Both the position numbers and the translations under genes were made by a program. A DNA stretch of 30,630 nt from a virus, in the IMG/VR virus record IMGVR_UViG_3300043777_000067, positions 1 through 30,630 of that record. One strand, 5' to 3'. Position 1 is the stretch's first letter, and each line of letters begins with the position of its first letter. The notes beneath the pieces are model-generated. The model was not told where the DNA came from and did not search any database. It saw only the letters and a list, made by a program, of their open reading frames with translations. Positions 5,584 through 27,737 of this stretch are shown one piece after another.

Positions 5584-5597
5584 TTGTCTCACGAGAG
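5584..5597 (-). repeat. Dispersed element, box B only (E12)
   Basis: Reads CTCTCGTGAGACAA toward the WbuC-like gene. It follows the stop of the preceding coiled-coil gene at once, and its GTG is in frame with the WbuC-like gene (peptide MRQIM). No box A is present. Confidence 0.75.
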
Positions 5598-5843
5598 TCT
5601 ATTGAGAGCGCGTTTAGCAATTTGCTTGTAGTATTGCGGACTACTAGCGATGTTATCCGCCATCATATAATTTATAGTTCCACCTTCGGCTTCCGCTCGT
5701 TTTTTCATCGCAGCGATTGGCTCTGCAATTTCCTCAAGCGCCTCGCGCAATTTCGCGTTTTCCTCGTTCACCCTCTCAAGGTGACGCAGCCTTATATTGG
5801 CTAGCGCCTCCCATCCTTGATCATTCAAGAGACAGTCGGTCAT
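5589..5843 (-). CDS. Small coiled-coil protein, unknown (84 aa)
   Basis: The start is ATG 5841-5843. Residues 18-55 are strongly helical with heptad-like spacing (HLERVNEENAKLREALEEI), and the C-terminal part ends YKQIAKRALNRLS. The final NRLS and the adjacent TAG precede a copy of box B. The gene sits between the aminotransferase side and the WbuC-like side of the sugar cassette. Such short coiled coils are common in phages; the function is unknown. Confidence 0.7.
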   Translation of the reverse strand: MTDCLLNDQGWEALANIRLRHLERVNEENAKLREALEEIAEPIAAMKKRAEAEGGTINYMMADNIASSPQYYKQIAKRALNRLS

Positions 5844-5861
5844 GGCAATTCTCGTCAGTGA

Positions 5862-6089
5862 TTAGTTGAAATCAGGCGAAAGCATCCGTCCAACCTCTCG
5901 ATAGAAGGAAGCTTTGCCGTCGTTTCGCCGGACGCTCAGTAAAGTATCAATCACGCGCTCCCACATTGGTTCTTTAACCCAATTAGGGCCGAGATTTATG
6001 CAACGAGCCACATATTGCCGCTGTGATTCCGGCAACATATCGAATAGAGCATCTTCATCCTCTGATCCGTCGCGATAACGAAGTTTCAT
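5862..6089 (-). CDS. Unknown acidic/basic small protein (75 aa)
   Basis: The start ATG 6087-6089 overlaps the stop of the preceding 25-residue ORF by one base (TGATG). A GTG one codon earlier is possible. The protein starts MKLRYRDGSEDEDALFDML, continues with QRQYVARCINLGPNW and ends MLSPDFN. It has mixed helix propensity and no motif that I recognise. Position suggests co-expression with the sugar cassette. Confidence 0.65.
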   Translation of the reverse strand: MKLRYRDGSEDEDALFDMLPESQRQYVARCINLGPNWVKEPMWERVIDTLLSVRRNDGKASFYREVGRMLSPDFN

Positions 6090-6166
6090 CACGGCAACTT
6101 TCCCAGATTTCCCATCAGGTAATAAAGATCACGCAGCCGTTGCCAGAATTCGCGCAATCGTTTCAT
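6089..6166 (-). CDS. Tiny ORF bridging two genes (25 aa)
   Basis: ATG 6164-6166 overlaps the stop of the aminotransferase gene (ATGA), and its stop overlaps the start of the next gene (TGATG). The peptide starts MKRLREFWQRLRDLYYLM and would be an amphipathic basic helix. Perfect packing on both sides argues for translation, perhaps only to couple the neighbours. There is no other evidence of a product. Confidence 0.4.
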   Translation of the reverse strand: MKRLREFWQRLRDLYYLMGNLGKLP

Positions 6167-7287
6167 TTGAAAAATCTCAACATGCTATCCACCACGTGAA
6201 AGACCTGTGTGCTCGACATTTTCTCATGGCATGGGAGGCAGAGAACTCCTTTCATCAGGCGTTCAGCGTTAGTCCAACAGCCCCGTGCGGTTGATTTATA
6301 GAGGGGCTGATTCGGCATGAGAACCGGATGCTGGATTTTTGTTTCAACCCCGCACGCTTGCAGATAGGCTTTCAGTTCGGCGCGACGGTCAGTCTGAATT
6401 GTGTAGGTGTAATAGGCGAGCTTTTCATAGGGCTGCTGTCGCGGAATATCGACCAAGGACTCAAACGCCTGATCGTAAATTTCCGCAATCCCTCGGCGCT
6501 TTTGCAGCACGTCCTCAACGCGATTCAATCGCACCAGCAGCATTGCCGCCTGGATCGTATCAAGCCGGTGATTGCCCGAAAGTTCGTGGCAAAATTCCTT
6601 GCTCCATACGCCTTGATAACGCAACGGATCGAGGCGTTCGTAAATCTCTTTGTCGTTGGTGAGGATCATCCCGGCTTCGCCGAGAGCAGCCAGGGTTTTC
6701 ATGGGATTCATGCTGAAACAAGTCACATCGGCCGCCGCAGCACCAACGCGCAATGCCCCACATGCTTGCGACGCATCATCGACGAGATACGGGCCACGAC
6801 GGTCTGCAATCTCCCGTATGCGCTCGATATCGCAAACGCGCCCCGCCCAATGCACCGGCATGATGACCTTGGTCCGGGGGGTGATGTGATCCTCGATTTG
6901 ATTCACGTCGATATTCAGGTCGTCGGCTATGTCGCAGAATATCGGTTCGGCGCCGACCATGCGGACGGCGTTGGCGGTCGCGATGAAGGACAGCGCCGGA
7001 ACTATGACCTCGTCGCCTTTGCCGATGTGGAGCGCGCGCAGGGCCAATACGAGGGCGTCCATGCCCGATCCCACGCCGATGCCATAGGTGCGATTGCAGC
7101 GGGCGGCGAAGGCTTGCTCGAATTCGCGGACTTCGGGGCCGTTGACGAGGCGGCCGTGATCCAAAACGCGCATGAAGCGCCCAAGCAAAGCGCGATATTC
7201 TTCGGCGTCTGTTACCCGCAAATCGAGGAACGGCACATCCAGGTAACGTGCTGTATCATGAGAGGGGAGCGAAGGTGCGAGGTTCAT
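6163..7287 (-). CDS. DegT/DnrJ/EryC1/StrS-family sugar aminotransferase (374 aa)
   Basis: PLP-dependent transfer of an amino group to a keto-sugar nucleotide, usually from glutamate. Recognisable family features are FLDL near residue 20, the GVGSGMDALVLAL cofactor loop at 71-83, EVIVPALSFIATANAV at 93-108, VDDASQACG at 169-177 and the Lys-containing motif SMNPMKTLAALGEAGM with Lys197 as likely Schiff-base residue. Length is full for the family. The start is ATG 7285-7287, preceded by GGTGA, which is also a box A half-site. It is the clearest enzyme of the sugar cassette and implies synthesis of an amino sugar that the PglD-like enzyme could acetylate. Confidence 0.93.
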   Translation of the reverse strand: MNLAPSLPSHDTARYLDVPFLDLRVTDAEEYRALLGRFMRVLDHGRLVNGPEVREFEQAFAARCNRTYGIGVGSGMDALVLALRALHIGKGDEVIVPALSFIATANAVRMVGAEPIFCDIADDLNIDVNQIEDHITPRTKVIMPVHWAGRVCDIERIREIADRRGPYLVDDASQACGALRVGAAAADVTCFSMNPMKTLAALGEAGMILTNDKEIYERLDPLRYQGVWSKEFCHELSGNHRLDTIQAAMLLVRLNRVEDVLQKRRGIAEIYDQAFESLVDIPRQQPYEKLAYYTYTIQTDRRAELKAYLQACGVETKIQHPVLMPNQPLYKSTARGCWTNAERLMKGVLCLPCHEKMSSTQVFHVVDSMLRFFK

Positions 7288-7295
7288 CGGTCACC
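7288..7295 (-). repeat. Dispersed element, box A half only (E17)
   Basis: Reads GGTGACCG directly followed by the ATG of the aminotransferase gene. The same arrangement, GGTGACCG then ATG, occurs at 23817-23825 on the plus strand. Here the half-site also serves as the ribosome-binding site. Confidence 0.5.
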
Positions 7296-7296
7296 G

Positions 7297-7551
7297 TCAC
7301 GCCTTCAATAGCTTTTCGACGCGCTCGCGAAAATGCGTCTTGTAGGTGTCGTCCTTGATTTCCTGGGCGGTGAATAGCGGAAACATATTGTTGTGCCGCG
7401 CGGACGTTACCGTGAGCGAAATAGTGCCTTCTCGCGTACACAAAAGATTGAGTTCGTCTCCGATGCCGAATTCCTCGGCGATACCTTGCAAGTCGGATAA
7501 CAGATGCGACCGCGCCCGCACCGCCTTTGCTTGCTGTTCGTCCATCGCCAT
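7297..7551 (-). CDS. Small unknown protein between glycosyltransferase and aminotransferase (84 aa)
   Basis: The start ATG 7549-7551 lies four bases after the stop of the first glycosyltransferase; a second ATG two codons on is possible. The product starts MAMDEQQAKAVRARSHLL and has a compact alpha/beta look (EFGIGDELNLLCTREGTISL) and a C-terminal helix (THFRERVEKLLKA). No family recognised. Its position points to a helper of the sugar cassette or simply a passenger gene. Confidence 0.65.
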   Translation of the reverse strand: MAMDEQQAKAVRARSHLLSDLQGIAEEFGIGDELNLLCTREGTISLTVTSARHNNMFPLFTAQEIKDDTYKTHFRERVEKLLKA

Positions 7552-7555
7552 AGGA

Positions 7556-8476
7556 TTATCTCGCTGCCCGCTTGCCGTTGCCGCGTTTGCGCTTGGTGGT
7601 CTTTTCGGCGATGGCGACGACCTCTTGCGGGGCTTGTTCTTCCGCCACACTCATCCCGCCATTTGTCCAATTGTATAGGACTGGCGACGGCGGCTGGAAT
7701 TGCAGCAACGATTGCTCCACGGCCGCACGCTGCTGATCCTCAATCACCTTTTGCATCGCCGCCTGCTGTTGCGCGACGGCTTCTTGCTGCGTGATGTGTT
7801 CGAGATAGCACGCGCCGTAATCGTATGGCCCCACGTGCGAGATTCGATAACCGACCGCCGCCCACACCTGACCACCACACATGCGCCAGCGGATGCAGAA
7901 CGACAAGTCCTCACTGACCCAACCGCGATTCTCAACGTTCATTTTATCGAACACGCGGAGCAAGCGATTCGCGCCTGCCGATTGCAGAATCTTGAAATAA
8001 GGCTGCAACCTGATTCGTCCGTCGATCAGTTCGGGAAATTTTGTCAGCATCGCGGTTATCACGTCGCGGCGAATCAGTGTGCAGCCCATGCCGACGCCTT
8101 CGACTTCCATGAAGTTGCCGCGCCGCTGCGTCATCGCCTCGCCGGTCCCCGACCCGGCCCACGACGTTGGAAGATTGCGCTGCGGATAGATCGCACCCAC
8201 CAGCGGTTCGTCGAAATGCATCATGTCGAGAACCATGTCGGGCGCAAAACCCATATCGGAATCAATGAACAGCATGTATTGCACGTCCGGCATGGTGTCA
8301 TACCAGATCGTCGTCGCCATCGACCGCAGTTCGGCAATGTCGGGAAACGAAAGTGTCGAGACAGACCCGGCGATTGATTTGGACGTGAACGCCTGTTGGA
8401 TGGCGTGCGTGGTCATGAAGGTTGCGGCCGAGACAATCTGGCCGAAGCCGGGGACGAACATGAAAACTTTGCGCAT
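7556..8476 (-). CDS. GT-A-fold glycosyltransferase-like protein (306 aa)
   Basis: A likely nucleotide-sugar-dependent glycosyltransferase. YMLFIDSDMGF at residues 67-77 carries the DxD metal/nucleotide-binding motif. EVEGVGMGCTLIRRDV (124-139) is the usual acceptor-side loop, and WVSEDLSFCIRWR near 187-199 carries the ED motif of the catalytic base. Glu/Asp residues in these motifs are intact. Residues from about 228 on are Gln/Ala-rich coiled coil plus a basic tail ending KRKRGNGKRAAR, unusual for the family and perhaps a virion- or nucleic-acid-anchoring extension. It is followed within four bases by the next gene. Confidence 0.85.
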   Translation of the reverse strand: MRKVFMFVPGFGQIVSAATFMTTHAIQQAFTSKSIAGSVSTLSFPDIAELRSMATTIWYDTMPDVQYMLFIDSDMGFAPDMVLDMMHFDEPLVGAIYPQRNLPTSWAGSGTGEAMTQRRGNFMEVEGVGMGCTLIRRDVITAMLTKFPELIDGRIRLQPYFKILQSAGANRLLRVFDKMNVENRGWVSEDLSFCIRWRMCGGQVWAAVGYRISHVGPYDYGACYLEHITQQEAVAQQQAAMQKVIEDQQRAAVEQSLLQFQPPSPVLYNWTNGGMSVAEEQAPQEVVAIAEKTTKRKRGNGKRAAR

Positions 8477-8480
8477 GGGA

Positions 8481-9395
8481 TTATCCGAAAGCTCGTGGAA
8501 ACGAAACGATGGTGGACGGCGGCGCCAACGCTTCGCTGAACATCCTGGCTTCCGCCAGGTCCATACCCTCGAACATCTTGGGCATCAATGCCACGGCGGC
8601 ATCCCGCACCCGCTTGTAGCGTTCGTCCTGCGAGGATTGCGTCAGCGTCAATTCCCAGCCTCGCGAATTCATCCGAACGTTATCGTTGACCCACTTGGAA
8701 TAATGCTCGACCCGCATATAGAGCGTGCGCAGTCTTGCCTTGGTCATTTCGGTTTCGTCAAGCGCGGCAATCAGTTTGTCCGCGTCGGCACGGCGAATCA
8801 GTTTGGCGGCATCGAACCATGTCCCCCACCAAGCCGGTTCGCGCATTTCCTGCGTCGTTCCTACTGCGCGCTGGTCGCTGCGAATATCGGCGTGAACGAT
8901 GCGATTCGTCATGCGGCCAATGTCGTCAATCCAATGGTCGCAAAACCAATAGGGGAAATACTCGGGCACGATATAGCCCAAGACTTCCACCCACCGTCGC
9001 GTCGGGCACATGATCGAGGAAAAACTGACATTCGACATATGGCCGTAGACCATGCCGATGCCGTCGGGGAAAAGCTTTGCAGCCTCCAAAATCTTCGTGT
9101 CATATCCTGGCGTGATGACCGGATCATCGTCGGCGGCGATGGCATACACGTCGGCGGGTTCCGACATGGAGCGATTCCATTTCGCCGCAATGGTATCCTC
9201 GCGCTTCTGCACGTTCACTTTGATGCGCGGATCGAGTTTGGTGTCGGTCACCATACCGAGCGTCGCATAGTCGTCGGCGTCGGCATGGATGGTGAGCGTG
9301 GTATTCGGATCGGTCCAATTCGCCATTGATATGCGAATCGTCTCCAAGAGCTTTTGCGGGCGGTTGCGGGTGGAGAGACTAATAAGCAGCTTCAT
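8481..9395 (-). CDS. Second glycosyltransferase-like protein, GT2-type (304 aa)
   Basis: The N-terminus MKLLISLSTRNRPQKLLETI is the first strand and loop of a GT-A fold. VYAIAADDDPVITPGYD at about residues 83-99 gives the DxD motif (DDD). Trp- and Tyr-rich regions follow (VPEYFPYWFCDHWIDDI, EPAWWGTWFD), consistent with an acceptor pocket. The chosen start ATG 9393-9395 has no clear ribosome-binding site. An in-frame GTG three codons upstream lies in box B and overlaps the stop of the upstream gene as GTGA, giving MTQMKLL, which may be the true start. It pairs with the adjacent glycosyltransferase. Confidence 0.82.
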   Translation of the reverse strand: MKLLISLSTRNRPQKLLETIRISMANWTDPNTTLTIHADADDYATLGMVTDTKLDPRIKVNVQKREDTIAAKWNRSMSEPADVYAIAADDDPVITPGYDTKILEAAKLFPDGIGMVYGHMSNVSFSSIMCPTRRWVEVLGYIVPEYFPYWFCDHWIDDIGRMTNRIVHADIRSDQRAVGTTQEMREPAWWGTWFDAAKLIRRADADKLIAALDETEMTKARLRTLYMRVEHYSKWVNDNVRMNSRGWELTLTQSSQDERYKRVRDAAVALMPKMFEGMDLAEARMFSEALAPPSTIVSFPRAFG

Positions 9396-9433
9396 TTGTG
9401 TCACGAGAGCTTGGTGATTACGGTTCGGTCACC
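9396..9433 (-). repeat. Dispersed A/B element copy E4 (short class)
   Basis: Reads GGTGACCGAACCG, then after 33 nt from box A start the TGA of CTCTCGTGACACAA. Box A to TGA is coding for the last residues (SGDRTVITKLS) of the upstream gene. The box B GTG is in frame with the glycosyltransferase downstream. Confidence 0.9.
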
Positions 9434-9625
9434 TGATGCCTGCGACTCTAAAAATCGAATCGCGGGAGCTACAATGCCGTCTGCAAACATTTTCCTATCG
9501 CTCACTCTGCCTTCCACGAGAAGGCGATAACCATGACGGAGTTGTGCGATGTGAAACAACAATTGGCTCGGCGGATAGCTGACCGATTCCGGCGCTTCCA
9601 CAGTTGCAAGACTCTCGTGACCCAT
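9401..9625 (-). CDS. Unknown small protein ending in the dispersed element (74 aa)
   Basis: The start ATG 9623-9625 has GGGGGA about 5 bases upstream and lies one base after the stop of the 207-residue gene. It begins MGHESLATVEAPESVSYPPS, where the GHES codons are an inverted copy of box B. The middle is helical (LLFHIAQLRHGYRLLVEG). The last 11 residues, SGDRTVITKLS, are encoded by dispersed element E4, and its TGA is the stop in box B. The gene is thus bounded by two copies of box B in opposite directions. Function unknown. Confidence 0.7.
   Translation of the reverse strand: MGHESLATVEAPESVSYPPSQLLFHIAQLRHGYRLLVEGRVSDRKMFADGIVAPAIRFLESQASGDRTVITKLS
9612..9621 (+). repeat. Dispersed element, box B only (E15), opposite to transcription
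   Basis: CTCTCGTGAC on the plus strand. On the minus strand it reads GTCACGAGAG and is translated as codons 2-5 (GHES) of the 74-residue gene. Confidence 0.65.
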
Positions 9626-9626
9626 A

Positions 9627-10250
9627 CTATTCCCCCGGTTCGGCGAGCTTGTGCGACGGCATCGGAATATCCAGCGCGGGGTCAATACTCATCTTGAGAT
9701 TGCCGCCTGTCCCGCGATACTTGCCGCCCATTTCGAATCCGTCGCGCATGGCTTTGGCAAGCTGCGCCTTACCACCCATCAATGATTCGTCACGGTCACG
9801 CATCTGCTGGATTGCGTTGCGCTTGTCCTCGTTCGCGGCTTCGATGCACATTTCCTCCGGGCGCTCCATCAGAGCTTGACCGCGCACCACGATAGGACCG
9901 TCATAGCCTTTGGGCATCCAATGGCCATCATGGCGCCTTGCTGGAACCGGACGCCACCCGTTCTGATAAAACTCGTTGTAGAAATCTTGCGCAATGTCCT
10001 TGTTGCCCAGCGACGCCATCACGCACCACTGATATTTGAAGCCTTCCGGCTCGAAACCGGGAGGCACCACGAATGGATCAAGGCCGCCGCGCCGCGAGCG
10101 GGTGAGGATTTCACCGTCGGCCGATCTATGAACGCGAGGTCCACTACGGGGAGCGTCGCGCTGCGGATTGCGAGGCTTATAAGGGCCGCGCCGCCGCACT
10201 GGCGTGTCGGTATCGAGCATTTCGCCGTTATCGTCGGGTTCGTTGGTCAT
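9627..10250 (-). CDS. Conserved-looking phage protein, unknown function (207 aa)
   Basis: The start is ATG 10248-10250. Residues 1-60 are Arg/Pro-rich and probably disordered (TPVRRRGPYKPRNPQRD). Residues 61-140 look folded and aromatic (FKYQWCVMASLGNKDIAQDF, YQNGWRPVPARRHDGHW), and the C-terminal part is helical, ending in PMPSHKLAEPGE. The WRPVPA-type segment resembles phage proteins encoded next to scaffold and capsid genes. A minor virion or scaffold-associated role is plausible, not shown. Confidence 0.75.
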   Translation of the reverse strand: MTNEPDDNGEMLDTDTPVRRRGPYKPRNPQRDAPRSGPRVHRSADGEILTRSRRGGLDPFVVPPGFEPEGFKYQWCVMASLGNKDIAQDFYNEFYQNGWRPVPARRHDGHWMPKGYDGPIVVRGQALMERPEEMCIEAANEDKRNAIQQMRDRDESLMGGKAQLAKAMRDGFEMGGKYRGTGGNLKMSIDPALDIPMPSHKLAEPGE

Positions 10251-10254
10251 TGAA

Positions 10255-11235
10255 TTATTGCTCCGTTAACGACTTGTCGTATTGTCCGCTTTGTTTGAGC
10301 GCGAGTTTGCGTCTAGCAAATTCTTGGACTCCGATGGGGTCGCCTTTTTTGAATCGCTTCTGGCCAGATGGGTCGTCATAGTTCCAGGTGAGGGTGCCAT
10401 CCGTGGCCGACGCTGCTTCACCCGCGCTCAATCTCACTTCCGTTCCTCCACTGACGCCCCCAGCAGATGCCGCGACAGGGGCCACAGGCGCCGCCGCAGC
10501 GCGGCGTTGAGTCTGTGCGCCGCCGTTTGCCGCAGCTTTGCCGTTGGGTTTTGTAATGCCAAGGAATTTCTCAACATGCTTGAAATAATCGGCGCTGCCG
10601 CGCGTACATCCCTCCGCGAACGCATCCGCATCCGCCGCGTTGAGTTTGGCGGCACGTCTCGGATCAGAATTTGTCGCCAATATGCGAGCGTCGTCTGGGT
10701 GATCGCGGAGCCACGCTTGCGTTCCTGCGTCTCGGCTCTGGATAAAAGCTTCCACAGGATCGCTGACGGTTGGCTCAGGGCGAAGAACCTCACCCCTTTT
10801 CGGTTGAGTCTTTTGGACTTCAAGATCGGCCTTGGCTTCGGTGAGTCGCCCAAGCGTCGCGCGGGCATCGGCTAACCTTTCCTGCGCTTCCGCCGCCTTG
10901 GCCCAATCGCCGGCTTCCATTGCGGCCTTGTATTCGGATTTGGCTGCGTCCGAGGACGTTTGCGCCGCTGCAATGCCTTGCTCAACCGTACCGAGACGTG
11001 TTTCAGCAATTTCCGTCCGCGTGGTTTCGACTTCGGCCTGCGCTGCCTGGCGTCCTTGGCTTTCCGTCGCCGCACGCCGTTCCGCCGCCTGCCGTGCTTC
11101 CTTTTCGCGCGCCGTTTCGGCTTGCAGTTCGGTCAACTGCGCCTTGAGCGCATCGGCAACGTCGGTTGTTTTCTCGTCCGGTTTCTTTTCCGGTTCTTCC
11201 TTTTCGATTTCCACTACGATTTCATCGTCGGTCAT
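10255..11235 (-). CDS. Probable head scaffolding protein (326 aa)
   Basis: An acidic N-terminus (MTDDEIVVEIEKEEPEKKPD) leads into a long Ala/Glu/Gln-rich coiled coil from about residue 30 to 135, a variable linker rich in Ala and Pro, and a basic C-terminal end. This architecture, together with its place between portal and capsid genes, is that of a phage scaffold. The start is uncertain: ATG 11233-11235, ATG 11242-11244 and the box B GTG 11263-11265 (MTQTFRRM) are all in frame. No protease gene is adjacent, as in P22-like heads, whose scaffold is recycled. That last comparison is inference. Confidence 0.65.
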   Translation of the reverse strand: MTDDEIVVEIEKEEPEKKPDEKTTDVADALKAQLTELQAETAREKEARQAAERRAATESQGRQAAQAEVETTRTEIAETRLGTVEQGIAAAQTSSDAAKSEYKAAMEAGDWAKAAEAQERLADARATLGRLTEAKADLEVQKTQPKRGEVLRPEPTVSDPVEAFIQSRDAGTQAWLRDHPDDARILATNSDPRRAAKLNAADADAFAEGCTRGSADYFKHVEKFLGITKPNGKAAANGGAQTQRRAAAAPVAPVAASAGGVSGGTEVRLSAGEAASATDGTLTWNYDDPSGQKRFKKGDPIGVQEFARRKLALKQSGQYDKSLTEQ

Positions 11236-11434
11236 GGGTGCCATCCGTCGAAAGGTTTGTGTCACGAGAGTTTGTTTGTTCTTTGCCGCCGGACTCGGTC
11301 ACCTGATGTTCCAGAGTGCCATCATCTTTGCGAATCCAACCATCCTGTTCGAGATTTGCGCGGACGCAATACCCATATTTACATAAATTGGGCATTGTGC
11401 ATTCGCCGTATGGACAATATGGACACCCACGCAT
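11222..11434 (-). CDS. Small Cys-rich, probable zinc-binding protein (70 aa)
   Basis: The start ATG 11432-11434 overlaps the stop of the co-chaperonin gene (TGATG). Cysteines at 4, 7, 12, 18 and 23 in MRGCPYCPYGECTMPN and CKYGYC suggest one zinc site. From residue 43 on the reading frame runs through dispersed element E2 in a third frame (HQVTESGGKEQTNS) and into the start of the scaffold gene, so the C-terminal 28 residues may be an acquired extension. Function unknown. Confidence 0.6.
   Translation of the reverse strand: MRGCPYCPYGECTMPNLCKYGYCVRANLEQDGWIRKDDGTLEHQVTESGGKEQTNSRDTNLSTDGTHDRR
11257..11303 (-). repeat. Dispersed A/B element copy E2 (long class)
   Basis: Box A GGTGACCGAGTCCGGCGG starts at 11303, and box B CTCTCGTGACACAA ends at 11257; box A to TGA is 42 nt. 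It is nearly identical to E1 at 27691 on the other strand, differing at a few middle bases. The GTG is in frame with the scaffold gene. Confidence 0.92.
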
Positions 11435-11886
11435 CAGAATATACTCTCCGGATCAGCCACGCGCCCCATGATGAGCGTATCTTCCACGAGTCGCACCGAA
11501 CTGCCATCCAAACTTGACTTCTCATCCACGAAAAAGAATTCGTGGGCGTCGGACGCCTTGTACATGATCCAGTCACCGACTTTGAGCGTGACGCCGCCGA
11601 AGCTGTCGGGTTTTGCGCCCTTGAACGCGGTGGGGCCGACTTTGAGAACCAGCCCGATCTTGCCTTGGAAGCGATCCTCGGCGCGCGTCCTGTCACCGCC
11701 GATGATGATGCCGCCCTTGGTCATGTCGGAACGAACATAGGTTCCGACCAGCACGAGGTTATGAAACGGCTCGAAATTCTCGATATTGTCGGCGCCGATG
11801 GCATCAACCAGAACCGTGCGCGCATCCTTGCCCTTGCCGATAGCCTCGGCGATGTCGGACAGTTTGCGGACTGACGTAACACTCAT
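11434..11886 (-). CDS. GroES-like co-chaperonin (150 aa)
   Basis: Expected to cap the host GroEL ring and help fold a phage protein, as T4 gp31 does for its capsid. The Cpn10 core starts near residue 43 (HNLVLVGTYVRSD). A mobile-loop-like segment TKGGIIIGGDRTRAEDRF follows at 56-73, then QGKIGLVLKVGPTAF, VTLKVGDWIMYK and VRLVEDTLIMGRV, in the normal order. Length is longer than bacterial GroES (about 97 aa) because of a 40-residue helical N-terminus and an insert. The gene lies between portal and scaffold genes and overlaps both neighbours by a few bases. The mobile loop tip GGIII is compatible with GroEL binding. Confidence 0.8.
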   Translation of the reverse strand: MSVTSVRKLSDIAEAIGKGKDARTVLVDAIGADNIENFEPFHNLVLVGTYVRSDMTKGGIIIGGDRTRAEDRFQGKIGLVLKVGPTAFKGAKPDSFGGVTLKVGDWIMYKASDAHEFFFVDEKSSLDGSSVRLVEDTLIMGRVADPESIF

Positions 11887-12391: not shown

Positions 12392-12418
12392 CCTAAACAC
12401 TCACGTCGTCAGTAAGTT

Positions 12419-12455
12419 TTGTGTCACGAGAGACAGGGCTTACGGTGCGGTCACC
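12419..12455 (-). repeat. Dispersed A/B element copy E6 (short class, 32 nt)
   Basis: Box A GGTGACCGCACCG begins at 12455 and box B CTCTCGTGACACAA ends at 12419. One base shorter than the other short copies, it has lost the common frame. The GTG here opens only an eight-codon frame and is not in frame with the next gene. Confidence 0.88.
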
Positions 12456-12475
12456 AAACCCGCACCGACTCAAGG

Positions 12476-13725: not shown

Positions 13726-13901
13726 TGGCGTTCCTTCAAATAGTCCCGAATCACCATATCGCTGCGGCTGCACCCATGAGGTTCGGGTTTTGCCTCACAA
13801 AACGGGCACCGCGCCAGCCTGTCGATAATATGAGGCCATACCGCAGTGATCGTCTCCCACGAAAGACCTTCGCGCTCGATTTCGGCAGCGGTTTGCATCA
13901 T
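13722..13901 (-). CDS. Small zinc-finger-like protein (59 aa)
   Basis: ATG 13899-13901 overlaps the portal stop (ATGA); a second ATG one codon later is equally placed. The stop overlaps the start of the Tat-signal gene. The middle RCPFCEAKPEPHGC offers Cys32, Cys35, His42 and Cys44 as a possible zinc site. N-terminal helix AEIEREGLSWETITAVWPHI. Its size just below common gene-calling limits means it may be missed by automatic annotation. Function unknown. Confidence 0.65.
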   Translation of the reverse strand: MMQTAAEIEREGLSWETITAVWPHIIDRLARCPFCEAKPEPHGCSRSDMVIRDYLKERQ

Positions 13902-16672: not shown

Positions 16673-16710
16673 GGTGACCGCACCGTTATCGCTCCGCTAT
16701 CGTGACACAA
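16673..16710 (+). repeat. Dispersed A/B element copy E9 (short class), opposite to transcription
   Basis: Box A GGTGACCGCACCG and box B CTATCGTGACACAA, 33 nt from box A start to TGA. It fills the whole gap between the large terminase and the next gene, but in the reverse direction. In its own frame it reads GDRTVIAPLS-stop, like copies E4 and E5. Confidence 0.88.
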
Positions 16711-16714
16711 CACG

Positions 16715-18768: not shown

Positions 18769-18814
18769 TTGTCTCATTCGCGGCCTGCGCAAGCTAACGC
18801 TCAGTGCGGTCACC
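18769..18814 (-). repeat. Dispersed A/B element copy E10 (diverged)
   Basis: Box A GGTGACCGCACTG begins at 18814, and its TGA is the stop of the small terminase gene. The box B part is diverged to CGAATGAGACAA, resembling copy E12, and lies just before the ATG of the next gene. Confidence 0.75.
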
Positions 18815-19547
18815 CCGTCGCACCAAATCTGTACGTCAAATCAACCTCGATCCCCAATTCTCGCGCCTGATTCGCAAGCTGCGCCACAAGCTCCTGATCG
18901 CTCAATCGCGACAATTCACCATCATCGCGTTGAGCAGTACCGATGCCAAGCATTTTGCGCAATTCCGCGTTGGCCTGCAATTTCGAGTACGGCTTTGGAA
19001 TCACAAATCCCGCGTCATTGATCGAAATGCTTTCCACCGCGCGCTGCACGTCCTCGGGCATTTCGTGAATATTCTTCGGCCGCTGCACCCATTTCATCAC
19101 CACCGAACCATCCGGATTGATGATCGGATTTCCCTTGTGGTCGCGCTTTTCGACTTCGACCATTTCCCACATTTGTTTGACGTTAGCCTCGTGAATCGTC
19201 CACAGGAATTCCTCAAGGCGGCGGCGCTTGGCTTGGAGGATTTCTTCTTCCTGCCGCGTCCAATAGGCGATTCGGTCCTGCACGTCCTGACGGCGCAGCA
19301 AGCGTGATGCGTTGCCGGCAGCGTCGTGATCGGACTCCGATTTATAGCCGGCCTGGCGGTAGGCGTCGGCTTTTGGCCGCATGACGGCGCAGAGGTAGCA
19401 GAATCGCTCAAGGCGCCGATTGTGCAACGGCGTGGAACCGGGGTAAGAGCTTGGAACTATTGAGGTTGCTCGGCTTTCGGTGACCGAATCCGGTGTTTCG
19501 CGCTGAAGGCCCTCCCGTGAAGCATCATGTTGCACTGCATCATTCAC
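18810..19547 (-). CDS. Terminase small subunit (245 aa)
   Basis: Binds the packaging site and recruits the large subunit. Residues about 44-95 have the Terminase_2-type DNA-binding pattern: RRLERFCYLCAVMRPKADAY, RQAGYKSES, ASRLLRRQDVQDRIAYW. A coiled coil (EEEILQAKRRRLEEFLWTI) follows, then a beta-rich central part and a C-terminal helix. The only plausible start is GTG 19545-19547. The first 40 residues are weakly structured, and residues 8-24 are an inverted reading of dispersed element E11. The stop lies inside box A of E10. Confidence 0.85.
   Translation of the reverse strand: MNDAVQHDASREGLQRETPDSVTESRATSIVPSSYPGSTPLHNRRLERFCYLCAVMRPKADAYRQAGYKSESDHDAAGNASRLLRRQDVQDRIAYWTRQEEEILQAKRRRLEEFLWTIHEANVKQMWEMVEVEKRDHKGNPIINPDGSVVMKWVQRPKNIHEMPEDVQRAVESISINDAGFVIPKPYSKLQANAELRKMLGIGTAQRDDGELSRLSDQELVAQLANQARELGIEVDLTYRFGATG
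19479..19520 (+). repeat. Dispersed A/B element copy E11 (long class), opposite and inside a gene
   Basis: Box A GGTGACCGAATCCGGT and box B CTCCCGTGA, 42 nt to TGA. It lies within the 5' part of the small terminase gene and is read in antisense as REGLQRETPDSVTES. Its middle GAAGGCCCTC matches copy E7. Confidence 0.8.
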
Positions 19548-22632: not shown

Positions 22633-22872
22633 CTAGCGTTCCTGCAGCATGCCAACCCAAGAAAAGCCACCGCTGGCAGCGCGTTGTTCATCCCAAAGCG
22701 GAAAAGAGTTCCATAGCTTTTCCGTAATCACGAACGGAACTGCTCTAGGTCGCCGCGCCATCACATAGCCTTTGGCGTGGGCGATGTAGGTGATTCGGCC
22801 CCAACATGGATTCACGACACCATTATGGCCCCAACGGTCGGCTTTGAGGTTGAGCGCGACTTCCGGTTTCAT
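22633..22872 (-). CDS. Unknown small protein (79 aa)
   Basis: ATG 22870-22872 overlaps the stop of the preceding gene (ATGA). The sequence includes ADRWGHNGVVNPCWGRITYI and MARRPRAVPFVITEKLWNSF; its mixed beta/aromatic pattern suggests a small folded domain. Not recognised. It ends just before the GGAG box of the next gene. Confidence 0.65.
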   Translation of the reverse strand: MKPEVALNLKADRWGHNGVVNPCWGRITYIAHAKGYVMARRPRAVPFVITEKLWNSFPLWDEQRAASGGFSWVGMLQER

Positions 22873-23099
22873 TGGCCTAATACCCTGACTTCCTTGCCTT
22901 CGGCCTGCCTCAAGGTGTCGATTGCGAGGGTGAGATTGGCGACGGTTTGGAGGTACATTCTGTATCGCCGGAAGGCGTGGTTGTATTCTTTCGTTGCTAC
23001 AAGTCTTTCCAGGGATCGCTCGACAGTTTCTATTCGGCGCAAAGTTTGGGCGCGTCGTTTTGTTAGGATTAACAATGGGTTATGGGTGTTTTGGGTCAC
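22869..23099 (-). CDS. Small basic coiled-coil protein starting in the dispersed element (76 aa)
   Basis: The only good start is GTG 23097-23099, inside box B of E7, with GAAGG seven bases upstream also inside the element. The next in-frame ATG is at codon 48. It starts MTQNTHNPLLILTKRRAQTL and is a two-helix basic protein (IETVERSLERLVATKEYNHA). The stop of the upstream 50-residue gene overlaps this start (GTGA). This is the clearest case of the element supplying a start codon. Function unknown. Confidence 0.7.
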   Translation of the reverse strand: MTQNTHNPLLILTKRRAQTLRRIETVERSLERLVATKEYNHAFRRYRMYLQTVANLTLAIDTLRQAEGKEVRVLGQ

Positions 23100-23137
23100 G
23101 AGAGGGCCTTCGCGATGATAGACCGGACTCGGTCATC
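23091..23137 (-). repeat. Dispersed A/B element copy E7 (long class)
   Basis: Box A GATGACCGAGTCCGGT starts at 23137 and box B CTCTCGTGACCCAA ends at 23091; box A to TGA is 42 nt. It encodes the C-terminus DDRVRSIIAKALS of the 50-residue gene and supplies the start of the next one. Confidence 0.9.
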
Positions 23138-23248
23138 TATGCGCCGAGACAGGCATGGGTGTGTCTTTTTTGCCACATCCCATAGGGATGGGCGCAGAAA
23201 GTGGGCGATCAGGCGGCGGGGGCGGCGCTTGAGGCGATTTTGCGTCAT
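23096..23248 (-). CDS. Small Arg-rich protein ending in the dispersed element (50 aa)
   Basis: ATG 23246-23248 overlaps the stop of the HTH gene (ATGA) and the stop overlaps the next start (GTGA). It starts MTQNRLKRRPRRLIAHFLRP and ends IDDRVRSIIAKALS, the last 14 residues being read from element E7. Very basic. At 50 residues it is below common gene-calling limits. Function unknown; packing on both sides supports translation. Confidence 0.55.
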   Translation of the reverse strand: MTQNRLKRRPRRLIAHFLRPSLWDVAKKTHPCLSRRIDDRVRSIIAKALS

Positions 23249-23484
23249 TCTGCGGCCTCAATCTTTTCGGGCGGCAGCGTCGACATGCCCCATAACCGGG
23301 AATTGGCGCCCAAGCCTTTCTCCATAAGTGCCTGGCGCATAACGAGAAAATGCCGCGACGGGAATACATTGGCTCGGCGCCAGAAGCTCACTTGTTGCTT
23401 GGAACGTCCGGTCAGCGCCGCCGTGGCGTTTGTGCCGCCGAGCGCGTCAATGACCGCGTTTGCGTCGTCAAGCATGGTCGTCAT
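23245..23484 (-). CDS. Small HTH regulator, Cro/YdaS-like (79 aa)
   Basis: Residues 5-60 have the pattern of short phage and alphaproteobacterial HTH regulators: ANAVIDALGGTNATAALTGR, then SKQQVSFWRRANVFPSRHFL and VMRQALMEKGLG. It is the first leftward gene, divergent from the rightward early genes, the classic position of a cI/cro-type regulator. ATG 23482-23484 was chosen because the 84 bases upstream contain operator-like repeats; an ATG at 23566-23568 is in frame and would extend the protein by 28 residues. Confidence 0.78.
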   Translation of the reverse strand: MTTMLDDANAVIDALGGTNATAALTGRSKQQVSFWRRANVFPSRHFLVMRQALMEKGLGANSRLWGMSTLPPEKIEAAE

Positions 23485-23623
23485 GGCGTAGCCGTACACT
23501 AAATGTTTATCGGGGGCAAGACGGATTGCGTTCACGGAAACGTGATCGGTGCGGTAAACAAAACCCATTGCATTCGGTAAACACCTAGTTTACTCTCAAA
23601 TTATCGGAACAAGGGAGACGGAC
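23485..23623. promoter_or_regulatory. Divergent control region with operator-like repeats
   Basis: Separates the leftward HTH gene from the rightward early genes. CGGTAAACA occurs at 23552-23560 and 23575-23583, and CGATAAACA inverted at 23504-23512. The second copy forms a palindrome GTAAAC-ACCTA-GTTTAC (23577-23593). Spacing between the two direct copies is 23 bp. These are candidate binding sites of the adjacent HTH protein; promoters must lie here, but I see no perfect -10/-35 pair. Confidence 0.6.
23577..23593. promoter_or_regulatory. Candidate operator palindrome
   Basis: GTAAAC and GTTTAC are perfect inverted halves separated by five bases. It lies about 30 bases before the start of the first rightward gene, where a repressor would block transcription. 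Half-sites recur twice more in the same region. Confidence 0.5.
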
Positions 23624-23815
23624 ATGACCAAGCTTACCGGAATTTTCGAGGTCTATCGCGGCCACTACATCCAAGAGAGCGACGGCAAGTGGCACGTCTA
23701 TAAAGGCGACAATACCCTTCTCGCCACCGCTGACCGCGAGCAGGCCGCTTACGATTTCGTGGACATCGAGCGCCGCAAAGCGCGTGGCGCGGGCGACCGC
23801 CCCGTAACCACGTGA
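23624..23815 (+). CDS. First rightward early gene, unknown (63 aa)
   Basis: ATG 23624 has GGGAGA eight bases upstream. The sequence MTKLTGIFEVYRGHYIQESD continues with GKWHVYKGDNTLLATADR, a small beta-rich fold, then a helix and the tail GAGDRPVTT, which resembles the GDRTVIT tail encoded by the short class of the dispersed element. First gene after the control region, so likely expressed immediately early. Not recognised. Confidence 0.7.
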   Translation: MTKLTGIFEVYRGHYIQESDGKWHVYKGDNTLLATADREQAAYDFVDIERRKARGAGDRPVTT

Positions 23816-23816
23816 A

Positions 23817-23824
23817 GGTGACCG
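23817..23824 (+). repeat. Dispersed element, box A half only (E18)
   Basis: GGTGACCG immediately before ATG 23825, giving AAGGTGA as ribosome-binding site. It mirrors half-site E17 before the aminotransferase gene. Confidence 0.45.
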
Positions 23825-24019
23825 ATGACCCTCTCCCACCCACTCCCCTCTCATGACCCAGACGACCGCATTGTGGCGCAAGCCTTTGCGTTGGGGTTGG
23901 AAATAGCCGAGCGCGAGGAACAACAGAAGAAATGGCAGCGCATGGTGGTGGGGTTGGGTGCGAGCGTGGCCGTTAACATCGTGACAATCATTTGGTTCTT
24001 AATGTGGAGGCTATCATGA
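23825..24019 (+). CDS. Small C-terminally anchored membrane protein (64 aa)
   Basis: ATG 23825 follows a box A half-site. The N-terminal 38 residues are soluble and charged (RIVAQAFALGLEIAEREEQQ), followed by one transmembrane helix from about residue 41 to 61 (VVGLGASVAVNIVTIIWFLM). The charge distribution predicts a cytoplasmic N-terminus. Function unknown. Confidence 0.65.
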   Translation: MTLSHPLPSHDPDDRIVAQAFALGLEIAEREEQQKKWQRMVVGLGASVAVNIVTIIWFLMWRLS

Positions 24020-24207: not shown

Positions 24208-24217
24208 GGAGATTGTA

Positions 24218-24394: not shown

Positions 24395-24395
24395 A

Positions 24396-24433
24396 GCTGA
24401 CCGCACCGTAATCACCGACCTCTCGTGACACAA
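24396..24433 (+). repeat. Dispersed A/B element copy E5 (short class)
   Basis: GCTGACCGCACCG then CTCTCGTGACACAA; 33 nt from box A start to TGA. In the same frame as E4 it reads ADRTVITDLS-stop. The GTG is in frame with the downstream 151-residue gene, ten codons before its ATG. Confidence 0.9.
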
Positions 24434-24454
24434 CCAAACCAACAGGGGCTTACA

Positions 24455-24910: not shown

Positions 24911-24976
24911 TTGGGTCATTCTGGATCACGGGTTGCGAATGCGACACGGAAATTCACACGACCGCTGGAGGGGAAA

Positions 24977-25363
24977 ATGGAACGCGCAGTTGCAGTAAAA
25001 AAGCTAGGCAAGCTGCTTGGCAAAAACCTCGGCTATCGCATCGCCGACAAGGCGCCGACGAAAGAGGAACGCGCTGCGGCGCAAAAGGCGCTCATCGGGG
25101 CAGTGGCACACCGGAATGCTCTGAAAGAGAAGCGCGACGAACGATACCGAGCAATCCTGGCCGCAGATGCCGAGTACCAACAGCTTCATGCGGAACACCG
25201 CGCCGCCAGCGAGCATGTGAACGAGCTATCGTCGATCACCCGCCATTACAAGATCACGGTGGGCATATCGAACAGTATGTTCTTCCACATCAAGGCCGAA
25301 GGCGACTCATGGGAAGAAATCATTGACAAGGTCCAATGGGACGGGACAAACAAACTCTCGTGA
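24977..25363 (+). CDS. Basic helical protein, unknown (128 aa)
   Basis: ATG 24977 follows GGAGGGG at good distance. Begins MERAVAVKKLGKLLGKNLGY, then a long charged coiled coil (APTKEERAAAQKALIGAVAH to about residue 85) and a small beta part (YKITVGISNSMFFHIKAEGD). The last residues GTNKLS and the TGA stop belong to box B copy E14. No family recognised. Confidence 0.7.
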   Translation: MERAVAVKKLGKLLGKNLGYRIADKAPTKEERAAAQKALIGAVAHRNALKEKRDERYRAILAADAEYQQLHAEHRAASEHVNELSSITRHYKITVGISNSMFFHIKAEGDSWEEIIDKVQWDGTNKLS

Positions 25364-25368
25364 GGCAA
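25355..25368 (+). repeat. Dispersed element, box B with left flank (E14)
   Basis: CTCTCGTGAGGCAA preceded by GGGACAAACAAA, matching the right half of copies E1 and E2. The TGA ends the upstream gene (TNKLS) and the GTG is in frame with the next gene (MRQTM). No box A. Confidence 0.8.
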
Positions 25369-25371
25369 ACC

Positions 25372-25608: not shown

Positions 25609-25609
25609 A

Positions 25610-25810: not shown

Positions 25811-26004
25811 GCTGTTTCTACGGCGCGATCTTCGACGACCGCGCAGAGAAGGACGACGAGGTTTGGATTGCTGTTACAATCGACCTTGCCGGAACGCAGA
25901 CGCATCTTTGCCGCTTCGCTACCGAGGATGCAGCCGAATCCTGTGCGAGGCTGCAATGGTTGGAGGACTCGCAAGCCAACGGACAGTTTGGAGTGGGAGC
26001 GTAA
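25792..26004 (+). CDS. Unknown small acidic protein (70 aa)
   Basis: ATG 25792 has GGAGG about nine bases upstream, inside the previous gene. The product starts MYDRNLGCFYGAIFDDRAEK, then strand-rich EVWIAVTIDLAG and a helical TEDAAESCARLQWLE. It resembles a small alpha/beta domain; not recognised. Confidence 0.65.
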   Translation: MYDRNLGCFYGAIFDDRAEKDDEVWIAVTIDLAGTQTHLCRFATEDAAESCARLQWLEDSQANGQFGVGA

Positions 26005-26006
26005 AA

Positions 26007-26204
26007 ATGGATCACGAAAACGAAGGTTTCACCGGATCGTGCCCAACGTGCGGCCAGAGCTATCGCGGCTATGAAATCGAGCGCCTGCGCGCAGCACTAC
26101 AAACGGCCGAACAGGCGCTAAAGGGCCAATCCGTCGTCGAGAAAGCCTACGCGCTCCATATCGTGCGCGACGCCATCGCCCAAGCTACAGGGAGGCCAGC
26201 GTAA
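26007..26204 (+). CDS. Small CxxC helical protein (65 aa)
   Basis: ATG 26007 follows GGGAGC. N-terminal CPTCG motif (residues 12-16), then one long helix with heptads (YEIERLRAALQTAEQALKGQ) and a helical tail. Such a zinc-knuckle plus coiled-coil architecture is frequent in small phage proteins. One CxxC alone suggests zinc shared in a dimer. Function unknown. Confidence 0.65.
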   Translation: MDHENEGFTGSCPTCGQSYRGYEIERLRAALQTAEQALKGQSVVEKAYALHIVRDAIAQATGRPA

Positions 26205-26205
26205 C

Positions 26206-26943
26206 ATGCACGCGAACATCGGCCACAATCAGCCGCCAGGGCCAATCGACTTCGCCAAGGAAGCGATCAGCGAGCTTTCCGAATACCTCAAGGAAAACCC
26301 GGTCGTTGAAACCTTTGACCAAGCCAAAGCGGCCGCTGCCCATATCGAGCGCACAAGGATCGCCCTCAAATCAATGGAGGAGGAGCGTTCTATAAAAGTT
26401 CTGCCCCTCAACGAACAGTTATCGACGATAAACACGGCTTATCGCATCGTCCGCGAGCCGCTGACCAAGATTTACGACACCTTGAAAGTTCGTGTGACGG
26501 CCTACAATCGGGCAGAGGAGGCCAAGCGCGCGGCGGAAGCGCAACGGCTGGCGGATATAGCGGCGGAAGCTGAGCGCGCTGCACGGGCGGCGGAAGCGGC
26601 CGAGCAAGAGGCCATTGCCAATGCGGAAGCTGGCGAATGTGCAGACGTGGGCGACGCCATCACCCAGGCCGACGATGCGTTTCGGGAATACTCGGTGGCC
26701 AACCGGGCGGCGCAGCGGGCGGATCGGGAAACCAAGGTGCGGATTCCGAGCGCGATGGGCGGCCGTGCATTGGGAATGCGCCAGGTCGAAGTGTTCACCG
26801 TCGAGGACGCCTGCGCCGCCGTCACCATCATGGGCGCGTCGGACGATCTTAAGAAACAGATTATCCGCGACGCCAAGCGGTTTCGTGAGGCGACGGGCGA
26901 ATTACCGGAAGGTGTAACGTCGGCTTACGAAAGATCATTGTAG
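26206..26943 (+). CDS. Coiled-coil phage protein of the early region (245 aa)
   Basis: ATG 26206 follows GGAGG 12 bases upstream. MHANIGHNQPPGPIDFAKEA starts a family of IGHNxPP phage proteins. A long Ala/Glu/Arg coiled coil extends over about residues 100-150, and the C-terminal domain (VEVFTVEDACAAVTIMGASD then LKKQIIRDAKRFREATGELP) resembles phage proteins encoded next to recombination or single-strand-binding genes. A role in replication or recombination is inferred from this and from position only. After its TAG the same frame continues as ASVDRVR, encoded by element E3. Confidence 0.75.
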   Translation: MHANIGHNQPPGPIDFAKEAISELSEYLKENPVVETFDQAKAAAAHIERTRIALKSMEEERSIKVLPLNEQLSTINTAYRIVREPLTKIYDTLKVRVTAYNRAEEAKRAAEAQRLADIAAEAERAARAAEAAEQEAIANAEAGECADVGDAITQADDAFREYSVANRAAQRADRETKVRIPSAMGGRALGMRQVEVFTVEDACAAVTIMGASDDLKKQIIRDAKRFREATGELPEGVTSAYERSL

Positions 26944-26949
26944 GCATCA

Positions 26950-26996
26950 GTTGACCGAGTCCGGTGAAACGGAATACTGTACCTCTCGTGACACAA
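26950..26996 (+). repeat. Dispersed A/B element copy E3 (long class)
   Basis: GTTGACCGAGTCCGGT then CTCTCGTGACACAA; 42 nt from box A start to TGA. TCCG and CGGA can form a short hairpin inside. The GTG at 26988 is in frame with the next gene through MTQMEQAM. Confidence 0.92.
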
Positions 26997-27008
26997 ATGG
27001 AGCAAGCC

Positions 27009-27458
27009 ATGCAGACCGCAACCATCGAAGTGAAATACGTCGGCCCCCCGAAAGAGGGCAAGCAATACGGCTTCATCAAGGGCGCGGACAATTCCACTTT
27101 TCCGGTGAAGGCTGATCGGATCAGAGAGTTTGAACCGGGCAACAAATACGAACTGGCCTGGACCGAAGGCCACAACGGTTTTAAGAACATCATCGGCGTC
27201 AAGCGGATTGTTGCGCAAGCTGCTCCGCAAGGCGACTTCACGCAGATCAGCGAACCGAAAGCTGTACCAAAGCAAACAAACGGGCAGCAATATTGGCAAC
27301 CGAAACCCACGTCGCCGAAGGACGGCAAGCGCATGTGCGTCACGTCGCTGATGAACGCGGGAATTACGAGCCATCAAATTCCGTTCACGCGAGACGCACT
27401 GGCGACGGCGTTTCGGGCGGTCAGCGAAGCGTTCGATGATGTGTTCGGAGAAGATTAG
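27009..27458 (+). CDS. Possible single-stranded DNA-binding-like protein (149 aa)
   Basis: ATG 27009 is preceded by GGAG at seven bases; in-frame starts further up are ATG 26997, GTG 26988 and GTG 26964. The N-terminal half is beta-rich (TATIEVKYVGPPKEGKQYGF, STFPVKADRI, KYELAWTEG, IIGVKRIV), like a small OB-type barrel. It is followed by a Gln/Pro/Lys-rich linker and a helical C-terminus with acidic end FDDVFGED. That layout resembles SSB proteins, but no signature residue proves it. Confidence 0.6.
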   Translation: MQTATIEVKYVGPPKEGKQYGFIKGADNSTFPVKADRIREFEPGNKYELAWTEGHNGFKNIIGVKRIVAQAAPQGDFTQISEPKAVPKQTNGQQYWQPKPTSPKDGKRMCVTSLMNAGITSHQIPFTRDALATAFRAVSEAFDDVFGED

Positions 27459-27498
27459 GTTTGCATCATCTGCGCGGAGCGCGCGGGGATAGGATCAT

Positions 27499-27506
27499 CG
27501 GTCACC
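27499..27506 (-). repeat. Dispersed element, box A half only (E16), opposite to transcription
   Basis: GGTGACCG on the minus strand, in the gap before the 50-residue membrane gene. Could be chance; listed because of position between two genes. Confidence 0.35.
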
Positions 27507-27526
27507 ATATCGCAGAGGAACCAGTC

Positions 27527-27679
27527 ATGAGATTTCCGGCATTTTATATGGGCGCGGGCGTAATGTGTGGCGTTGGCGCGGTTAACACTACCATACAACA
27601 GCCGCTCTTTGGATTATTGTTTGCAGGGGCCATACTCCTCATTCTTTTGGGCGCACTATTCGAGGCGTGCAATTCATGA
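27527..27679 (+). CDS. Small membrane protein (50 aa)
   Basis: ATG 27527 has GAGGAA about eight bases upstream. Two hydrophobic stretches: FYMGAGVMCGVGAV and LFGLLFAGAILLILLGALF, with a short turn (NTTIQQP) between. Ends EACNS. Below the usual length limit for gene finding. The stop overlaps the ATG of an 18-codon frame that runs through element E1. Confidence 0.6.
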   Translation: MRFPAFYMGAGVMCGVGAVNTTIQQPLFGLLFAGAILLILLGALFEACNS

Positions 27680-27732
27680 CCCCCGCATCAGGTGACCGAG
27701 TCCGGCGGTACGGAACAAACAAACTCTCGTGA
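27676..27732 (+). CDS. Mini-ORF formed by the dispersed element (18 aa)
   Basis: ATG 27676 overlaps the stop of the membrane gene (ATGA) and the frame MTPASGDRVRRYGTNKLS ends at the box B TGA. It has the same tail pattern as the real genes ending in E4, E7 and E14. A ribosome-binding site is weak. It may be a coupling peptide or just the element's open frame. Confidence 0.25.
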   Translation: MTPASGDRVRRYGTNKLS

Positions 27733-27737
27733 CCCAA
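27691..27737 (+). repeat. Dispersed A/B element copy E1 (long class, best conserved)
   Basis: GGTGACCGAGTCCGGCGG then CTCTCGTGACCCAA; 42 nt from box A start to TGA. Nearly identical to E2, 16 kb away on the other strand, which argues for recent copying or strong selection. The GTG is out of frame with the next gene here. Confidence 0.93.

Follow-up and report, generated by a model that had tools for sequence, protein, structure and literature searches.

A two-box repeat as a candidate end mark of small accessory-gene cassettes in a group of uncultured tailed phages

A bipartite element at gene junctions

The stretch of DNA analysed here (the window: 30,630 nt of IMG/VR record IMGVR_UViG_3300043777_000067, labelled G000 in genome comparisons) carries repeated copies of a TCGTGA motif (Table 1). 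The motif is part of a longer element of 38-50 bp, commonly about 48 letters, found as 213 distinct copies in 33 related IMG/VR contigs, the richest of which have 15-24 dispersed copies each. The layout is bipartite: an inner box A, TGACCG plus type-specific letters, and an outer box B, TGANNCAAA, stand apart by distances that fall into two classes, 35-39 bp or 27-29 bp, the gap between the classes being about one helical turn. The sequence family has sharp edges; genome-specific variants exist (CCATCG in G019, for example), and near-copies of the whole element, spacer included, occur inside a single genome.

Orientation relative to adjacent genes is, in the clear cases, sense for 99 copies and antisense for 77; five window copies (1700, 9580, 16673, 19479 and 27460) are antisense to their neighbours, and GTGA is conserved alike in antisense and sense copies (94% vs 91%). 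The first-pass annotation, which treated box B as a stop/start signal for neighbouring genes, overlooked the antisense copies, the two-box architecture and the outward pairing described below. One spacer subfamily, AACAAACAAA, is found at sense ends in 23 cases vs 1 (Fisher 3e-7), a bias that suggests that left and right ends are distinct.

Several simple identities were tried and rejected. Single elements show no RNA structure (mean folding z from -0.35 to 0.71, both directions tried), and values so near zero tell against an RNA element. A promoter is disfavoured by a box spacing that in most types exceeds the reach of sigma-70, by the half of the copies that face back into the upstream gene, and by the divergent control region of the window (23568-23624), which has no copy. 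As for a host element, a search of 257 Gb of GTDB genomes with the box A..TCGTGA pattern gave five matches; all had a spacing other than the true one, and their number is close to chance expectation for 20 fixed bases plus a variable gap. The element was absent from isolated phages (blastn, 50,697 records), and the box sequences were not found in the literature searched.

Table 1. Elements, cassettes and cargo genes along the window
Position	Strand	Feature	Remarks
913..960	-	Right end (t4-like) of DNA-methyltransferase cassette	GTGACCCTGAGGG...CGATGAGTCAAA; G041 has a different element end at the matching flank, CTTATCCACAACC
967..1683	-	Cargo gene, N6/N4 DNA methyltransferase (PF01555), cassette-borne	
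1700..1747	+	Left end (t1) of methyltransferase cassette	antisense to genes
5583..5597	-	Box B alone (first-pass 5592 site)	box A not recognisable; orthologues of the gene that follows have an ATG start
7251..7295	-	t3 element	letters encode N-terminus MNLAPSLPSHDT of gene 6163-7287
9395..9433	-	t2 element (9402 site), right end of cassette 9395-9626	
9434..9579	-	Small cargo ORF between outward elements	translation MGHESLATVEAPESVS... from left end
9580..9626	+	t1 element, left end of cassette 9395-9626	antisense
11256..11303	-	t1 element (11263 site), right end after inserted ORF 11222-11434	G001 junction empty
12418..12455	-	t2 element	kept in G001, G002, G004, G005
16673..16711	+	t2 element, 3 bp past TerL stop	antisense; in relatives t2 (G001, G004, G005) or t4 (G012)
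18769..18814	-	t4 element	upstream of gene preceding TerL
19479..19525	+	t1 element	antisense; in-frame within terminase small subunit N-terminus (SREGLQRETPDSVT)
23090..23136	-	t1 element (23097 site)	sole site with plausible GTG start
23817..23862	+	t3 element	
24398..24433	+	t2 element (24425 site)	t1/t2 before this gene family in eight genomes
25322..25369	+	Degenerate t1 element (25360 site)	box TGA is stop of ORF 24911-25363
26950..26997	+	t1 element (26988 site)	junction without element in G002, G004
27460..27506	-	Weak t3 element	antisense; directly past stop of gene 26997-27458
27691..27738	+	t1 element before HNH/DUF968 gene 27745-28173	GTG out of frame

The box B GTG as a start codon

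The first-pass annotation had proposed a hand-over of translation at the element, in which the TGA of box B ends one gene and its GTG starts the following one. The GTG is indeed open into the following gene at all seven sites named (11265-, 26988+, 9404-, 24425+, 23099-, 5592- and 25360+; the resulting ORFs are 336, 156, 307, 161, 76, 165 and 82 aa long, in that order). The accompanying estimate of about three by chance overlooked that one frame in three is always closed by the box's own TGA. Among 53 sense copies outside the window, 18 are open from GTG, 10 from GTG+2 and none from GTG+1. The gene lies in the GTG frame at 27 of these 53 (p = 0.006 against 1/3, in a test that counts orthologues repeatedly), so that a mild frame-0 excess remains; in nine of the 27 a stop codon separates the GTG from the gene. 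The M[TR]Q said to be shared by the N-termini is no more than the conserved box letters GTGACACAA or GTGAGGCAA read as codons, letters that antisense copies carry too. What survives is that some upstream ORFs do end at box TGAs, at 9401 (ORF 9401-9685) and at 25361-25363 (ORF 24911-25363); at 23096, the third such stop proposed, the box B TGA closes no ORF of 60 aa or longer, and the upstream ORF, 23133-23369, stops in box A.

Comparison of orthologues tells against the hand-over itself. The gene 10255 junction in G001, about 90% identical and without the element, reads TAG GAGTTGAAGCG ATGGCAGACGAT, and element-free junctions with a downstream ATG start are likewise seen for gene 26997 (G002 and G004), gene 8481 (G002 and G005) and gene 5095 (G041, G002, G004 and G005); since these junctions use the downstream ATG, the GTG arrived with the insert. 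Where the element is present its frame drifts: ahead of gene family 24455, where AGGGGCT and the ATG do not shift, the GTG falls in frame 0 (G000, G002, G023), frame 1 (G033) or frame 2 (G037), and in G004 gene 8481 has GTG ACC TAA and gene 10255 a GTG one base out of frame. A Shine-Dalgarno match is at most a trace at six of the seven GTGs. The open frames at the seven window sites and the 27 of 53 elsewhere are what hand-over has in its favour, together with the gene 22869 family, the only one to keep its frame; with nearly half of the copies antisense, keeping GTGA equally well in an orientation that does not follow translation, we consider hand-over very improbable.

Real starts at the box B GTG are rare. 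The probable exception is gene 22869-23099: five genomes keep this GTG in frame, four of the five lack an in-frame ATG close by, and this gene alone among the seven has an AAGG upstream of the GTG. This looks like incidental use of a codon brought by the element.

Outward pairs and the contents of junctions

Close pairs, that is adjacent copies less than 600 bp apart, turn box B outward around small optional ORFs in 37 of 51 cases (p = 1.4e-12), and the median gap in outward pairs is 455 bp vs 2.4-3.2 kb in other arrangements. Two N6/N4-methyltransferase cassettes of G019 (7435-8196 and 55635-56487), lying in different gene neighbourhoods, share 84-89% DNA homology from the outer edge of the left element to the outer edge of the right, and their 30-nt flanks match at ~0.3; the outward elements thus stand as terminal inverted repeats bounding a unit, as in DDE-type insertion sequences and MITEs. 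The methyltransferase cassette of the window (913-1747) is homologous to these, lies between other genes, and has its left homology limit at the element edge, within a few bases. Homology bounded by elements at both ends was found for this one cassette family only, and different end types are mixed within one cassette.

At several junctions, genes that flank an insert in one genome are adjacent in a relative. The cleanest case, among relatives 90-92% identical to the window, is the junction at 11235/11434, which is filled in G000 and empty in G001; in G041 the same flanks enclose other contents at 700/1750 and at 9395/9627. Of 95 orthologous junction pairs whose elements share an orientation, 28 have elements of different types. 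Small ORFs are inserted also at junctions without elements.

From these sequence comparisons we read the element, with a probability of roughly 0.55, as the end mark of small mobile or exchangeable accessory-gene cassettes in a group of uncultured tailed phages. TCGTGA would be the core of the outer box of a cassette-end element; a cassette would be ordered B'-A' - optional ORF - A-B and would lie at the junction of two core genes, after the stop of the first and before the start of the second, so that box B would always abut a core-gene end, antisense after a stop and sense before a start. Copies that stand alone and doublets that enclose no ORF would be remnants or empty forms. A protein, be it a recombinase or another DNA binder, may recognise the two boxes, and recombination at the ends may move or exchange cassettes; the stop and start codons in the element would be by-products of insertion into near-zero intergenic space. 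We also entertain, tentatively, an undescribed, very small phage gene-cassette system with interchangeable bipartite termini, a putative recombinase reading the boxes on one DNA face, and promiscuous cargo moved into gene junctions, which would comprise methyltransferases, a MazG-like gene and small unknown ORFs.

Machinery sought, regulation and known systems

No common transposase or recombinase was found among the carriers in the families searched. Y1/RAYT transposases (Y1_Tnp) were absent in 20 contigs, in a search that did give matches in control genomes; Phage_integrase was present in three of 20, and an IS1595 transposase was seen only in G019, in a search that covered some transposase families in contigs that are possibly fragments. 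Gene families 6 and 7 (window 26206-26943 and 26997-27458) occur in eight of 10 element-rich and none of three poor contigs; neither is transposase-like, and as a cognate gene both were set aside. Shared 4-7-mers showed no excess that would indicate target-site duplication in 55 pairs. Collinearity breakpoints are not enriched at element edges (94 vs a control mean of 111 at random gene boundaries), on which ground a recombination hotspot was rejected. The missing common enzyme, target duplication and breakpoint excess count against the cassette reading, as do the mixed end types, the element-free ORF insertions and the single element-bounded cassette family.

The same want of a transposase and of target duplication would suit a boundary linker, in which the shared letters are only a short homology where general phage recombination swaps modules and no enzyme is devoted to the task, and between G000 and G041 contents are indeed swapped between the common outer letters TATGGGTCA and ACAAATGAAG. 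Yet breakpoints are no commoner at elements than at other gene boundaries, and the linker leaves the conserved inner box A and the spacing classes unexplained; we judge it unlikely.

Conservation between relatives raises a further alternative. At orthologous junctions the element spacer is 81% identical vs 41-48% for ungapped flanks, the only figures quoted because the locating pattern itself partly forces conservation of the box letters; several positions are kept in 4-8 genomes. Copies at orthologous positions, which also count against the cassette reading, would fit a regulatory site: a phage DNA-binding protein on two boxes on one helix face at many gene boundaries, acting as repressor, roadblock, insulator or promoter element, with the bracketed small ORFs as regulated genes. 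The many dispersed copies, the bipartite form with helical-turn spacing classes and the genome-specific variants agree with this, and SPBRE of SPbeta is a precedent, a dispersed element shown to be a repressor site. Such a site is possible but somewhat unlikely: orientation is untied to transcription, the divergent control region goes without a copy, whole elements recur as near-copies, spacer included, within a genome, and G019 holds an exact element-bounded cassette duplication. SPBRE and the stoperators of cluster A phages resemble the element as dispersed intergenic DNA sites in phage genomes; however, they are known repressor sites of 13-15 bp, whereas the element takes its orientation from the gene end and has copies that delimit duplicated cassettes. 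Stoperators are aligned with transcription (PMC9283540); the element, about half antisense, is not an asymmetric site of that kind.

Akin to the cassettes of this reading are morons, extra genes between two genes that are contiguous in relatives (PMC3029335), as are the inserts here; morons, however, typically have their own promoter and terminator, whereas here inverted bipartite ends are common to unrelated cargo. REPINs and REP doublets (PMC3116915) are likewise short dispersed extragenic repeats with inverted doublets over-represented, and an ORF-less doublet in G041 folds strongly as ssDNA (z -3.5; the other doublet tested is weak, z -1.0), but single elements here are not palindromes, cargo ORFs lie between the arms, and the 20 contigs have no RAYT. 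MPME of mycobacteriophages (PMC3029335) are very small mobile DNAs with inverted ends, also in phages; MPME1 is a single 439-bp unit that has a sequence of its own and adds 6 bp where it inserts, in contrast to the many cargos with only ends in common. SAS/ESAS of cluster K mycobacteriophages (PMC3203893) are conserved non-coding sequences close to gene starts, some of them extended by a further part upstream; at 13 bp, nearly always in one orientation and 3-7 bp before starts, they differ from the element, which keeps to neither that orientation nor that position and in about half of cases lies antisense after stops.

For annotation pipelines, stops and starts borne by cassette ends can yield false N-terminal extensions (M-T-Q...) and peptide tags. 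Small genes come and go constantly at phage gene junctions, yet one can rarely see which DNA delimits the piece that moves. In these phages a single element family stands at both edges, and related genomes show empty, filled and duplicated forms, so that how morons move becomes testable. If the proposed cassette system is real, it would be a phage counterpart of integron-type cassette exchange that leaves core genes unbroken.

The contig and its relatives

The window is a tailed-phage contig of 30.6 kb, whose genes point left between about 1 and 23570 and right beyond; a small terminase subunit is encoded alongside the features tabulated below. Its relatives are uncultured IMG/VR contigs only, and the phage collection held nothing similar to it at the DNA level. 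One conserved protein (26997-27458) forms five strands in its AlphaFold model (mean pLDDT 73). Its Foldseek matches are weak (best E 2.7e-3) and for the most part OB-fold proteins, ssDNA binders among them; judged from this model, the product is possibly a phage ssDNA-binding protein. All ten element-rich contigs longer than 40 kb carry an outer-membrane-protein-like gene, with a signal peptide, porin-like by eye and with no Pfam match, which may indicate a Hyphomicrobiales host. One protein of the related contig G002 (A1 set) matches the 5-hydroxymethyl-dU DNA kinase helical domain (PF18723, E 1.6e-45), which suggests hypermodified phage DNA within the group.

Locations of features in the window and, where prefixed, in related contigs
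Feature	Location	Strand	Remark
Methyltransferase cassette	913-1747		
Sugar-type genes	4188-9404	-	late block; DegT/DnrJ aminotransferase, hexapeptide acyltransferase, glycosyltransferase-like proteins
GroES-like co-chaperonin	11434-11886	-	phrog_3188, E 3e-10; inside structural gene block
Element with inverted repeat	12418-12470	-	repeat upstream of the element
Portal	13898-16141		leftward block
TerL	16715-18520		leftward block
Conserved protein	26997-27458	+	
Outer-membrane-protein-like gene (example)	L060:4313-5125	-	
Second dispersed repeat	G002: around 24231, 25174, 27613, 45204, 45390, 57626; G004: around 36346		about 60-75 bp

A two-box element at gene boundaries

TCGTGA is part of a two-box element, of which profile searches recovered 238 copies, 213 of them distinct, on 33 contigs. 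The element occurs in four types, whose common letters are TGACCG in the inner box (A) and TGANNCAAA in the outer box (B), and its edges are sharp: information content drops immediately beyond each box. Isolated exceptions apart, the TGAC-to-TGA distance falls into two classes, 27-29 bp for type 2 and 35-39 bp for types 1, 3 and 4. The classes differ by roughly one turn of the helix and do not follow multiples of three, so the spacing points to protein-DNA contacts rather than to a reading frame. No RNA folding was found for single elements. The inverted repeat upstream of one copy, CGGTGCGG..CCGCACCG, is nearly unchanged in four related contigs (G001, G002, G004, G005) and is a possible site-specific hairpin. 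Contig comparisons also revealed the second repeat family, which is unrelated to this element.

Nearly every copy sits at a gene boundary with box B abutting the gene end, antisense copies following the upstream gene's stop codon and sense copies preceding the downstream gene's start. Neighbouring copies less than 600 bp apart mostly face outward (37/51, p = 1.4e-12), enclosing either a mere 8-21 bp or small ORFs, among them a MazG-like gene and DNA methyltransferases.

Start and stop codons in box B

The first-pass annotation had proposed that box B hands translation from gene to gene, its TGA stopping one and its GTG starting the next. At all seven sites named, the GTG is indeed open into the following gene; the TGA is the upstream stop at two of the three sites claimed, the upstream ORF at the third (23096) stopping in box A. 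The supposed N-terminal signature M[TR]Q is merely the box sequence itself read as codons, and the figure of about three in-frame GTGs expected by chance is an oversimplification, since one frame is always closed by the TGA that overlaps the GTG. At 53 sense copies outside the window a gene lies in the GTG frame in 27, is truly open from the GTG in 18 and is open in the +2 frame in 10, counts in which orthologues are not independent and some GTG starts were picked by the gene caller itself.

Observations on orthologues tell against the hand-over: for genes 10255, 26997, 8481 and 5095, four of the seven, element-free orthologues start at the downstream ATG, and the GTG frame differs between orthologues of the 24455 family. 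Gene 25360, which has no homologue among the related contigs, has GAGG upstream of its ATG. The exception is gene 22869-23099 (-), whose GTG is kept in frame in five genomes, four of them lacking a nearby ATG. Its domain is separate and element-preceded in the window group. In four relatives (G002, G003, G020, G023) it forms the C-terminal region of a longer, fused ORF, whose N-terminal half resembles, by eye, an Xre-type repressor.

Cassettes and their ends

Orthologous junctions are filled in certain genomes and empty in others, and the contrast is clear-cut when the window is set beside close relatives. At 11235-11434 the window has an ORF and an element where G001 has 13 unaligned bp. At two junctions another relative, G041, has the same flanks as the window but other contents: a bare type-4/type-1 doublet in place of a methyltransferase cassette, and another ORF in place of 9395-9626. 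Contig G019 carries two methyltransferase cassettes in different neighbourhoods, their homology spanning each cassette up to the outer edges of its left and right elements and stopping there; the window's cassette at 913-1747 belongs to the same family and occupies a further, different location. Element types differ between genomes at the same junction and orientation in 28 of 95 pairs, as would be expected if every cassette presented box B outward. The N-terminus of the cargo (M..GHES..RPDSVN) is often an in-frame translation of the left end, and its C-terminus one of the right end, a by-product of insertion among tightly packed genes.

The sequences show the anatomy of the element and the behaviour of the cassettes; the further inference is that a protein recognises both boxes and that cassettes move through recombination at element ends. 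Among the transposase and recombinase families searched we found no enzyme common to the carriers, nor did we find target-site duplications, and breakpoints were not in excess at elements over ordinary gene boundaries. The main alternative, a regulatory role for the element, has a precedent in SPBRE and is favoured by retention of elements at orthologous positions.

For the element as a cassette end, the closest working likeness is the moron with transposon-like ends. REPIN doublets partly resemble the element pairs, but the element fails those defining features of REPINs that are open to testing, and likewise those of SAS/ESAS and of stoperators. The element-bounded units are grouped with the small inserted phage gene cassettes, a known kind; for the terminal element itself we found no description in the literature searched.
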